NCBI RefSeq assembly: GCF_020532555.1
Contig: NZ_JAJBBR010000002.1
Span: 124,001-188,000 of the forward strand
DNA length: 64,000 nucleotides
Reading direction: 5' to 3'
DNA from: Microvirga lenta
GTDB taxonomy: Bacteria; Pseudomonadota; Alphaproteobacteria; Rhizobiales; Beijerinckiaceae
How positions within the stretch are numbered: position 1 is the first letter of the stretch; each line of letters begins with the position of its first letter. The notes below the pieces were generated by a model. It did not search any database. It was not told the origin of the DNA and worked only from the letters and a program-made list of their open reading frames with translations. A program made the translations under genes and the position numbers. Shown here one piece after another: positions 13,171 to 51,734 of the stretch.

Positions 13171-13312
13171 GGAAGCTCCCTCGAAACACCTGCCTCATCC
13201 GACCAGAAACGGAGAGGAACAACAATCGGTATTCCACCGGCGGCGCCATGCGCCTGATACATGCGCGGCTATGCTTGTTCCAATGCCGCAACTGTTCTAC
13301 AAGCAACATGTC

Positions 13313-13398
<86 letters not shown>

Positions 13399-13477
13399 GC
13401 ATGCATCGCAGATCAAGCTGCGCCCCGTGCAAGTTGTGCCGCCGATCCGGCTTGTCTCACGCATGGGAGCATCCCTG

Positions 13478-48763: not shown

Positions 48764-50347
48764 TTACGCCGCCTTCTTCTGGTAGTCCTTCACGTCCGAG
48801 AACTGGATCCCCTTGTAGCGGTCCATCTCGTATTGAAGGTTGAAGGTGTTGGCCGCCATGAAGACGGGCGCATCGTCGAGGTCGCGCGCCATGGACGAGA
48901 GATGGCTGTCGATGAAGCGGTCGAGCTCCGTGCGGTCCGCCGCCGTGATCCAGCGGCAGATGGTGAACCGCGTGGGCTCGTAGTCGATCGGCAGGCCGTA
49001 TTCGCCCTGGAGGCGCTCCTTCAGCACGTCGAGCTGCAGCGCGCCGACGACGCCCACGATGGCGCCCGAGCCGTCTTGCGGCACGAAGAGCTGCACGACG
49101 CCCTCCTCGGCCATCTGCTGCAGCGCCTCGCGCAGCTTCTTCGCCTTCATGGCATCCTGCAGCTTGATGCGGCGCAGGATTTCCGGCGCGAAGCTCGGCA
49201 CGCCCCGGAACACGATGTCCTCGCCCTCGGTGAGCGTATCGCCGATGCGCAGCGTCCCGTGGTTCGGAATGCCCACCACGTCGCCCGCCCAGGCCTCGTC
49301 CGCGATGGCGCGATCCTGGGCGAAGAAGAATTGCGGCGTGTTCAGGCTCATGGGCTTGCCCGTGCGCACGAGCTTGGCCTTCATGCCGCGCTGGAGCTTG
49401 CCCGAGCAGATCCGCATGAAGGCGATGCGGTCCCGGTGGTTCGGGTCCATGTTGGCCTGGATCTTGAACACGAAGCCGGTCATGCGGTTCTCGCCCGCCT
49501 GGACGAGCCGCTTGTCCGCCTCCTGCCCGCGCGGCGGCGGCGCGTAGGCGGCCAGCGAGTCGATGAGGTCGCGCACGCCGAAGTTCCGAAGGGCGCTGCC
49601 GAAGAAGACCGGCGTCAGATGCCCCTCGCGGAAGGCTGCGAGATCGAAGGGCTTGCAGGCCTCCTGCGCCAGCATCACCTCCTCCTGCCAGGCATCGACC
49701 TCTTCGGGCGGCAGCAGGCCCAGCAGGGCCGGATCGTCGGGCCCGGAAACCTGCGTCGGCTCCTCGTCCGTATCGATGCGGCGCACGAGGTTGCGGCGCA
49801 GGTCGAAAGTACCGGCGAAGTTGCGGCCCTGGCTGATCGGCCAGGTGACCGGCGCCGTGTCGAGGGCCAGCGTCTTCTCGATCTCGTCGAGGAGATCGAA
49901 GGGATTGCGGGCCTCCCGGTCCATCTTGTTGACGAAGGTGACGATGGGGATGTCGCGCATCCGGCAAACCTCGAACAGCTTGCGGGTGCGCGCCTCGATG
50001 CCCTTCGCGGCGTCGATGACCATGATGGCCGAGTCGACCGCCGTCAGCGTCCGGTAGGTGTCCTCCGAGAAGTCCTCGTGGCCCGGCGTGTCGAGCAGGT
50101 TGAAGACGCAGTCGCCGTATTCGAAGGTCATGACCGAGGTCACGACCGAGATCCCGCGCTCCTTCTCGATGCCCATCCAGTCGGAGCGGGTCGAGACGCG
50201 GTTCTTCTTGGCCTTCACCTCACCGGCGAGCTGGATCGCGCCTCCGAAAAGCAGGAGCTTCTCGGTCAGCGTGGTCTTGCCCGCGTCCGGGTGGGAGATG
50301 ATCGCAAAGGTTCGGCGGCGGCTCACGGGAGCCGGAAGATCGGTCAT
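48764..50347 (-). CDS. prfC: Peptide chain release factor 3
   Basis: This 527-residue translational GTPase has G1 IISHPDAGKTTLTEKLL, a switch region with TRSDWMGIEKERGISVVTSV, G3 NLLDTPGHEDFSEDTYRTL and G4 VTFVNKMDREARNPFDLLDE; the C-terminal EF-G-like and RF3-specific domains end with YKGIQFSDVKDYQKKAA. RF3 recycles RF1/RF2 from the ribosome after termination. The start at 50347 is preferred because the family begins about 13 residues before the first strand. A small structured RNA unit is transcribed divergently upstream. Confidence 0.97.
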   Translation of the reverse strand: MTDLPAPVSRRRTFAIISHPDAGKTTLTEKLLLFGGAIQLAGEVKAKKNRVSTRSDWMGIEKERGISVVTSVMTFEYGDCVFNLLDTPGHEDFSEDTYRTLTAVDSAIMVIDAAKGIEARTRKLFEVCRMRDIPIVTFVNKMDREARNPFDLLDEIEKTLALDTAPVTWPISQGRNFAGTFDLRRNLVRRIDTDEEPTQVSGPDDPALLGLLPPEEVDAWQEEVMLAQEACKPFDLAAFREGHLTPVFFGSALRNFGVRDLIDSLAAYAPPPRGQEADKRLVQAGENRMTGFVFKIQANMDPNHRDRIAFMRICSGKLQRGMKAKLVRTGKPMSLNTPQFFFAQDRAIADEAWAGDVVGIPNHGTLRIGDTLTEGEDIVFRGVPSFAPEILRRIKLQDAMKAKKLREALQQMAEEGVVQLFVPQDGSGAIVGVVGALQLDVLKERLQGEYGLPIDYEPTRFTICRWITAADRTELDRFIDSHLSSMARDLDDAPVFMAANTFNLQYEMDRYKGIQFSDVKDYQKKAA

Positions 50348-50426
50348 GGTTCTCAAATTCTCTGGGTTCGGAAACGGGGGGCAGAACGCCGCAGGGCCCG
50401 CCTCTTACGTCTTGGACTTCTCACCC

Positions 50427-50612
50427 TATATTGGGCTTTCCCGTCAACAACGAAAGGAGGTGATCCAGTGTCTCATTGTCATACCCAGCGGTCCCAGATT
50501 GCCGTGACCTGGATCTTGGCCTCTGCCGAGGTTCGTGCGTAACGCACAAAGGCGCGGTCGATCAGGACCGCGGACCGACAATGGAAAGGCCGCCCTCGGG
50601 CGGCCTTTCTTT
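50427..50612 (+). ncRNA. Structured small-ORF transcript with full anti-16S complement (candidate dual-function RNA)
   Basis: Between divergent prfC and the converging aspartoacylase gene lies an independent unit. It has a TATATT -10-like box (50427-50432), AAAGGAGGTGATCCAG (50453-50468) perfectly complementary to the usual 16S rRNA 3' end, a 24-codon ORF, and several hairpins. GATCCAG (50462-50468) can pair with CTGGATC (50509-50515) and hide the start. GTGCG-TAA-CGCAC (50535-50547) has the stop codon as its loop. CGCGGTC/GACCGCG (50553-50572) competes with GCGGTCC inside the ORF (50488-50494). An intrinsic terminator closes the unit. The -35 is weak. Confidence 0.6.
50468..50542 (+). CDS. 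24-residue peptide with extended Shine-Dalgarno
   Basis: GTG at 50468 to TAA at 50540 encodes 24 residues, M-S-H-C-H-T-Q-R-S-Q followed by IAVTWILASAEVRA. AGGAGG lies 7 nt before the GTG and is part of a 16-nt perfect match to anti-Shine-Dalgarno rRNA. The short hydrophobic middle is too short for a secure membrane helix; the Cys-His pair might bind metal. I do not recognise it. The peptide may matter less than the act of ribosome binding or translation. Confidence 0.5.
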   Translation: MSHCHTQRSQIAVTWILASAEVRA

Positions 50613-50613
50613 T
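50585..50613 (+). terminator. Rho-independent terminator
   Basis: AAAGGCCGCC (50585-50594) pairs perfectly with GGCGGCCTTT (50599-50608) over the tetraloop CTCG, followed by CTTTTTG. It ends the small-ORF transcript and also lies 6 nt beyond the stop of the converging aspartoacylase-like gene. Confidence 0.88.
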
Positions 50614-50618
50614 TGCGC

Positions 50619-51734
50619 TCATGCGCTCAGGAGCTTGCCCGTACGCCGGGCATTGGTGCCCGCGATCTTGGCGAGACGCTGCCCCTCGCTGGCGAAGCGC
50701 AGCAGGATGCGGGCGAACATCACCCCGTCGACGGGTGAACGGGCGGGCGTCACCGCACCCGTCAGCGGATCGACGATGTCGGCGATCGCATCCCCTTCCT
50801 TCAGCTTGTCTCCGGGCTTCGCCTTGAACACGACGATGCCCGAGGCCGGAGCCTGAACAGGCTCGGAGGCGGCCAGAGGCGTCGGCCGGCACAGGGGCTC
50901 GGGCAGCTTCGGAGCCTCCCCGGCGATGGCTCCGCGCAGGATCATGTAATCGACCAGGGCCGCGGCATCCGCCTGGGCGAACTCGTGACTCACATCGCGC
51001 TCCCCGCGGAATTCGAGAGTGGTCGAGTGGCAGCCGAACGGGATCGGCCGGTCGGGGAACCGGTCCGCCAGTTCGGCCCAGGGGCGGCTGCAGGCCTCGT
51101 CGAAGGGGTCGTCCCCCGATTCGTCGGCCAGGAGGAAGGCGTGGGAGCCGAGCAGCGCGTTGAGCGGCGCGAAGGCCTCGGCGGACCGGGTATGGGTATA
51201 GAGATGTACGACGGCCTCCGAGTCGCAGTGCATGTCCAGCACCAGATCGGCCTCGATCGCCAAGCCGAGGAGGGTCTTTTTCAGAACCTCGGCGGCGTTC
51301 CCCGTCTCCCAATCGCTCAGCTCGGCGCGAAGGGCCTCGCGGATCAGGCGAAGATTCGCCTCCCCGTCCTCCGTCAGCCTGCCCTCGATCCTCTCCGCCA
51401 CCTTCGGCACCAGATAGGGATAGCCCCGGTTGAAGTTGACCCCGTCCGCCAGGTTGAAGCGGCCGATCGGCTCGCCCAGCACCCTCTGGGCGAGGCCGAT
51501 GGGATTGGCCGACGGCACCAGGACGATCTCGCCCTCGATCCGGCCCTCGGCCTCGAGCGCGACGAGGCGTTCGCGTAGATGATGGGCCGTGATCATGCCG
51601 GGAATCTCGTCCGCATGCAGCGCAGCCTGCACATAGACGCGCGGACGGGCGCCGGCCTCGCCGAAGCGGTGAACCGTGAGCGAGAGGCTCGCGCCGGGCG
51701 CAAGCGGAGAGAGGGCGATCTGTTCTGTTCTCAT
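50619..51734 (-). CDS. Succinylglutamate desuccinylase/aspartoacylase family metallohydrolase
   Basis: In this 371-residue zinc carboxypeptidase-fold protein, the zinc ligands are in QAALHADEIPGMITAHHLRE (His and Glu) and LVLDMHCDSEAVVHL (His); the catalytic Glu is in HSTTLEFRGERDVS. A C-terminal beta barrel (about 285-355) has GIVVFKAKPGDKLKEGDAIA. Members deacylate small amides such as N-acyl amino acids or ectoine derivatives. No pathway partner is adjacent. It is followed by the terminator at 50585-50613. Confidence 0.88.
   Translation of the reverse strand: MRTEQIALSPLAPGASLSLTVHRFGEAGARPRVYVQAALHADEIPGMITAHHLRERLVALEAEGRIEGEIVLVPSANPIGLAQRVLGEPIGRFNLADGVNFNRGYPYLVPKVAERIEGRLTEDGEANLRLIREALRAELSDWETGNAAEVLKKTLLGLAIEADLVLDMHCDSEAVVHLYTHTRSAEAFAPLNALLGSHAFLLADESGDDPFDEACSRPWAELADRFPDRPIPFGCHSTTLEFRGERDVSHEFAQADAAALVDYMILRGAIAGEAPKLPEPLCRPTPLAASEPVQAPASGIVVFKAKPGDKLKEGDAIADIVDPLTGAVTPARSPVDGVMFARILLRFASEGQRLAKIAGTNARRTGKLLSA

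Follow-up and report, generated by a model that had tools for sequence, protein, structure and literature searches.

We found that a compact RNA gene at positions 50452-50614 on the plus strand of the window (the whole stretch of 64,000 nucleotides that was analysed) begins with a long complement of the 16S rRNA 3' tail, followed by a short reading frame, and in our judgement the balance is about even as to whether this RNA has been selected for ribosome docking and short translation, and not for a peptide. Comparison between genomes supports this reading through the complement itself, the start-codon signature behind it, the length of the frame, the apparent lack of selection on the peptide, covariation of a helix named P1 and an excess of internal copies of the 16S tail. 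Across the class, the conserved parts were the 16S complement, the start codon, the short frame, the closing helix and a terminator-like hairpin, and no common seed, peptide or neighbour was seen across the loci compared, so the simplest inference is that the target would be the ribosome.

The Rfam search that the initial annotation had proposed showed that the homologues were already catalogued: the locus is a member of the known CC2171 family, RF01867 ("Caulobacter sRNA"), which the covariance model matched at 80.2 bits against a gathering score of 75 (E 8.2e-15). The predicted fold had a z-score of -6.43, and none of 200 shuffles reached equal stability, which together with the Rfam E value indicated that the RNA is more than chance. 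The model alignment contained the conserved 5' block, the closing helix and the terminator of RF01867, and the block and helix of the consensus are the same as those at the locus; the internal consensus helices showed several non-standard pairs here, with low alignment confidence in the middle of the model. The features of the locus are listed in Table 1.

Since prfC on one side is divergent and the frame on the other is convergent, both on the minus strand, no same-strand gene lies directly behind the RNA, which agrees with the earlier claim that no downstream gene on this strand is controlled. Among the neighbours of 12 listed loci, none was recognised by eye as prfC; we took them to be acetyl-CoA synthetase, RNase R and others, and this reading carries no weight. 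The biggest neighbour cluster comprised 26 of 116 loci, and the clusters were mostly confined to one group each. An RNA serving as leader or attenuator for a gene further downstream would have the same attenuator-like combination of short frame, structure and terminator, but with a convergent next gene in the window, no neighbour cluster above that size and a terminator-like hairpin ending the RNA, we regard such a role as highly improbable. Upstream of the RNA, an ATAT-plus-GG core akin to the near-palindrome CCCTATATTGGG was counted by eye in 22 of the 27 aligned loci of the genus. The promoter scan gave no promoter at the locus and consensus counts across loci gave nothing clear, and to call CCCTATATTGGG an operator or promoter element is a guess, which makes it only a candidate. 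Elsewhere in the window, at 13306-13412 (+), there is a TPP riboswitch (RF00059, 78.7 bits).

Table 1 Coordinates of the RNA, its parts and the neighbouring frames in the window
Feature	Position	Strand	Basis
RF01867 (CC2171) match, full model 1-159 of 159	50445-50607	+	covariance-model score
Near-palindrome CCCTATATTGGG, conserved upstream within the genus; candidate -10 region TATATT at 50427-50432	50424-50435	+	alignment
Anti-16S block GAAAGGAGGTGATCCAG, complement of the 16S 3' tail	50452-50468	+	sequence, conservation, predicted duplex
Short frame of 24 codons, GTG start at 50468-50470, TAA stop at 50540-50542	50468-50542	+	sequence; length constrained
P1 helix, 5' strand CATTGTC, codons 3-5	50474-50480	+	predicted fold, covariation
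Partial 16S-tail copy in the frame, CTGGATC at 50509-50515 and CCTC at 50520-50523; can pair with the anti-16S block	50509-50523	+	sequence
Stop-codon hairpin GTGCG-TAA-CGCAC	50535-50547	+	predicted fold
GGACCGC, pairs with GCGGTCC of the frame	50565-50571	+	predicted fold
P1 helix, 3' strand GACAATG, before the terminator	50577-50583	+	predicted fold, covariation
Terminator-like hairpin (50584-50609) and T run	50584-50614	+	predicted folds; unlisted by simple terminator scan
prfC, divergent from the RNA	48764-50356	-	NCBIfam prfC, 669.8 bits
Open frame running toward the RNA (convergent)	50619-51734	-	no NCBIfam match

The sequence facts of the initial annotation were borne out, and the perfect 16-nt complement of the 16S 3' end that it described proved to be one base longer. 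AAAGGAGGTGATCCAG at 50453-50468 (+) occurs twice in the 33-contig assembly, here and in locus L001, where we take it to lie antisense to the 3' end of a 16S gene. Compared with the 16S gene of this genome, the match extends to 17 nt, GAAAGGAGGTGATCCAG, because the preceding G matches too. The predicted duplex between the block and the 16S tail reached -29.7 kcal/mol, compared with -9.2 for AGGAGG alone. For class-wide comparison, duplicates and too-short loci (L047, L071, L078 and L240) were removed to leave 290 distinct loci, 273 of which had a stop as well as a terminator-like hairpin; we retained 150 representatives, which are still related, so that counts over them are not independent events. 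Length filters then left 149 loci for the closing-helix test, 146 for the partner permutation, 137 for the stop loop, and 149 and 147 for the 16S-tail copy.

The arrangement GAAAGGAGGTGATCC-N-[AGT]TG recurs across Alphaproteobacteria. In the 150 representatives, information was 1.46-2.00 bits per position at positions 1-14 of GAAAGGAGGTGATCC and 1.36 bits at position 0, it was only 0.45 bits at the next base (N), and conservation returned at the T and G of the start codon, the first base of which was A, G or T; these values are to be read with the facts that most loci were chosen through the block or through the Rfam model containing it, and that the search patterns demanded D-T-G. The conserved complement presumably spans the free tail after helix 45, with the variable base facing the helix. 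Absence of the block from relatives, which the initial annotation had named as counter-evidence, was not what we found: the block is conserved in related genomes, and in all 30 loci fetched with RF01867 the block (0 to 2 mismatches), the start codon and the short frame were readable. We also used a bait free of the block, a pattern wholly downstream of it, on 149 genomes in the family of genome G145, where the frames begin MSHG like those of named sphingomonads. GAAAGGAGGTGA was present in 25 of 25 matches and the full GAAAGGAGGTGATCC in 21 of them, and the remaining four had one substitution (two matches) or a one-base deletion (two matches) of GAAAGGAGGTGATCC. The exact block followed by N-C, the sole alternative continuation examined, was absent from all 231 class genomes searched.

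Changes within the block were also informative. At positions 1-14, pairing with 16S was kept by 20 transitions and broken by 2, with seven positions open to each kind, and each of the 10 transversions broke the pairing. Position 0 was G in 134 of the 150 representatives, and all 16 changes there broke the pairing, eight of them being G to A. Against the docking reading, a strong Shine-Dalgarno site would by itself account for GGAGGTGA. TCC is moreover able to pair with GGA in a small hairpin, which means that 16S need not be what the 3' extension serves. Covariation of the block with 16S was sought through differing 16S tails, and the matches, which lay mostly at other sites of the genomes, gave no usable contrast. 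On folding, the block core GGAGGTGATCC was unpaired with a mean probability of 0.37, compared with 0.32 when the middles were shuffled, and the value was higher in 104 of 150 representatives; since the mean is just 0.37, the block is often paired in predicted folds.

A complement of this kind could also act as a sponge for small RNAs with CCUCC loops instead of binding 16S, and two rhizobial RNAs with CCUCCUCCC loops, SmelA075 and SmelA099, are described in the text available for PMC3927594. But the complement tracks the 16S tail on either side of CCUCC and then meets a start codon, and a sponge needs neither, so we consider this very unlikely. Like the CC2171-like RNA, these anti-Shine-Dalgarno sRNAs are built around Shine-Dalgarno pairing; however, according to the same text their CCUCC loops have the sense of the 16S tail, whereas the CC2171-like RNA carries the complementary strand and would target 16S directly.

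The family was then delimited by several searches. With an E value of 0.001 or lower, RF01867 was detected in 49 of 240 class genomes, and 8 of these detections were above the cut-off. Among relatives it was found in 33 of 41, and the 25 genomes listed for the window's genus all had it. Rfam gives the family as a Caulobacter sRNA, and here it was traced, mostly below the cut-off, into other alphaproteobacterial groups. With at most one mismatch, the pattern AAAGGAGGTGATCCNDTG was found in 118 of 387 class genomes and was unmatched in the other 269, and its reversed control was found in 3. The exact core AAGGAGGTGATCCNDTG was present in 62 of 299 phylum genomes, which by kinship were 61 of 113 class genomes and 1 of 186 outside the class, and its reversed control was present in 0 of the 299. 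The lone match outside the class (genome G478, locus L303) had no stop in the fetched stretch and does not resemble CC2171 RNA. That the block is the antisense of a 16S end would also be expected of a chance similarity or an rRNA-derived fragment, but the match stops where the start codon begins, the block is conserved, the RNA covaries and the reversed pattern was absent, which makes such an origin close to negligible.

A scan of named genomes with GAAAGGAGGTGATCCNDTG gave at least 119 stretches, and among the 80 titles listed, four named another group (L038, L041, L050 and L107), three named just Proteobacteria and the rest were alphaproteobacterial. The match in L038 is a long open frame, and those in L050 and L107 are doubtful. 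L041, on a contig titled Gemmatimonadetes, is an apparent member, perhaps mis-binned or transferred. When 18 named loci were scanned at Rfam gathering scores, three reached RF01867; the other Rfam matches in these loci, a tRNA and whalefall-1, lay elsewhere and were discarded as not being this RNA. The whalefall-1 RNA (RF01762, 44 bits) is at 7753-7804 of L097, an Inquilinus limosus contig. Within the genus, L219, L226 and L228 are variants of the RNA that differ from it in the middle and in the 3' half. Four of the 27 aligned loci (L212, L215, L223 and L227) have extra sequence with a common GGAAAAGTGG start directly behind the stop hairpin, and in these loci the Rfam match exceeds that of most genus members in length by about 45-130 nt; this insert looks like a mobile repeat.

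The 24-codon frame that had been claimed behind the block is present, and its peptide is VSHCHTQRSQIAVTWILASAEVRA, for which no Pfam match was found. In 140 of the 150 representatives the frame from the start codon was 12-36 codons long, compared with 52 and 44 for the other two frames. We asked about the product through pN/pS, which was 0.96 for the short frames over 68 non-overlapping close pairs of equal length (302 nonsynonymous and 109 synonymous changes), and the shifted frames of the same pairs gave lower values of 0.78 and 0.74. In seven groups chosen by peptide start and length, frame 0 ranged from 0.80 to 1.36. A signal-peptide-like subtype of 54-59 codons served as positive control and gave 0.47, 0.39 and 0.58 (n of 4, 3 and 2), which means that the test is able to see selection. 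This subtype (L115, L157, L158 and L161; L076, L235 and L236; L299 and L300) carries the block with 0-1 mismatch and possibly encodes a small exported protein; in a Pfam scan of two members, one was unmatched and the other had one weak match below the cut-off.

On these values we rejected a peptide function of the short frames. The alternative is an ordinary dual-function RNA, in which a small messenger with an unusually strong ribosome-binding site makes a functional peptide; the start codon, frame and stop are all kept, and the related subtype with its signal-peptide-like start and low pN/pS speaks for it, but the short-frame pN/pS exceeds that of the shifted frames and the window's peptide is without a Pfam match, and we hold this alternative to be quite unlikely. 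The dual-function RNA of the initial annotation is thus unsupported where it depends on a peptide, while its ribosome-binding regulator is favoured by the comparisons and its translation-state sensor is possible. The frame was apparently kept and its product apparently was not, which suggests that selection acts on translation itself, unless an untranslated frame is held open in another way.

The frame is also tied to the rest of the RNA by pairing. In an alignment-free test on 146 loci, codons 2-6 scored 12.67 with the terminator-adjacent segment of their own locus and 10.02 (sd 0.21) with permuted partners, which gave a z of 12.9 under a permutation that ignores the relatedness of the loci, and the pairing signal extended along the diagonal into the frame. 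The helix concerned, P1, was first spotted by eye in part of the loci later tested. On an alignment of 40 sequences, hand-picked from two lists of 52 and 40, paired cells of P1 made up 90.7% compared with 75.9 in shuffles, cells changed on both sides numbered 36 compared with 8.6, and the covariation score was 0.441 compared with 0.175 in shuffles, while sliding the helix gave no more than 0.085. Two of the five measures were not unusual: 5 pairs had changed on both sides vs 4.1 in shuffles (155 of 500 shuffles as high), and there were 13 further pair types vs 10.8 (48 of 500 as high). A lack of stem covariation had been named beforehand as evidence against the RNA; P1, the helix closing the frame, does covary.

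The stop codon forms the loop of a perfect hairpin as described earlier, and in L218 of the genus this hairpin is GTGCC-TAA-GGCAC, changed on both sides. Class-wide, the stop codon was in the apical loop in 26 of 137 loci, compared with 12.2 expected. One of the two pairings that had been suggested for GGACCGC, with GCGGTCC of the frame, is present in the predicted fold, and class-wide, a preference for the own partner is seen in the corresponding part of the long hairpin. The claimed terminator was recovered in predicted folds as a terminator-like hairpin followed by Ts, and such a hairpin was placed behind the RNA in 279 of 290 loci by a lenient finder with no shuffle control. Alignment between groups is poor in the middle of the RNA. 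These structures would also suit a trans-acting sRNA gated by translation, in which ribosome passage opens the long hairpin and the freed 3' arm pairs with target messages: the frame and the 3' arm prefer each other along one hairpin, P1 would open upon initiation and a terminator-like hairpin stands at the end. But the 3' arm and the P1 sequence differ between groups, so no common seed is visible, and we see this as a somewhat unlikely explanation.

CTGGATC in the frame is able to pair with GATCCAG of the block, as the initial annotation had noted, and this is part of a wider tendency. Complements of the own block behind the frame start scored 16.03, compared with 14.45 in shuffles (sd of the shuffled mean 0.18), and in 100 of 149 loci the 16S-tail copy scored higher than the median of the shuffles of that locus. 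Such copies include GGATCACCTCC (L104) and ACCTCCTTTC (L043). In a control with 60 permuted motifs on the same sequences, the mean was 14.12 (sd 0.80) compared with 15.98 for the native motif, and at least one permuted motif beat the native one (maximum 16.10). The upstream flank had no excess of such copies. This analysis suggests that CC2171-like RNAs tend to carry an internal 16S-tail copy, a tendency that was weaker in the permuted-motif control.

According to the docking reading, the stand-alone RNA of about 160 nt would have engagement of the small ribosomal subunit as its selected activity. The 30S subunit would dock at the 5' end through the free 16S 3' tail before the folded remainder opens, and docking would lead to initiation at the start codon one base further, for which P1 must open. 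With full pairing, a single base would separate the helix from the start codon. Normal placement in the P site needs more room than this, so a docked state with all 15 pairs would be expected, followed by shortening before initiation. The ribosome would then read about 18-30 codons, the sequence of which is not specific, and in doing so would unzip the long hairpin of the frame; it would stop, in some members, within the apical loop of this hairpin. Without a ribosome, the 5' block would pair with the internal 16S-tail copy, and this would be the closed state. The effect in trans may be competition with Shine-Dalgarno messages for 30S subunits, with the RNA acting as a sink or a reporter of free subunits. 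A further proposal, which we consider unlikely, is that the RNA remodels ribosome choice in trans: with the entire 16S tail covered by the 15-pair duplex, ribosomes would be unable to use Shine-Dalgarno sites and translation would move toward leaderless and non-Shine-Dalgarno messages, and the RNA's own short frame and internal 16S-tail copy would provide release and feedback. Ribosomes of the MazF type, which are truncated and prefer leaderless messages, are without a usable anti-Shine-Dalgarno. Their tail is cut off, whereas in the case of the CC2171-like RNA it would be covered, so the likeness is in idea alone.

In Caulobacter, the available text of PMC4117421 gives a Shine-Dalgarno site for only 24.6% of coding sequences, so a competitor for the anti-Shine-Dalgarno could act on a minority of messages. 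The same text (Schrader et al.) states that two earlier predicted Caulobacter ncRNAs were translated, which it does not name. RF01867 is listed in a table of Rfam structure updates (PMC11701678) and corresponds to MH_s33 in Mesorhizobium huakuii (PMC5596092). The literature passages searched, from the main texts of mostly open-access papers, gave no function for RF01867 and no description of a 16S complement in it. A known system close to it is rnTrpL of Sinorhizobium meliloti, which is also a short RNA with a short translated frame; but the text consulted (PMC10117765) has it derived from the tryptophan attenuator and beginning with its own AUG, and calls its peptide functional, whereas in the CC2171-like RNA the complement of 16S is long and no co-directional gene follows. 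What our analysis would add to RF01867 is the anti-16S reading of the block, a frame apparently without peptide selection and the probable 16S-tail copy.

An Rfam family for which the literature searched states no function thus gains a directly testable hypothesis. If it is true, a large bacterial class keeps an RNA whose conserved active site would be the ribosome's Shine-Dalgarno handle, and whose reading frame would be maintained for being translated, not for its product.
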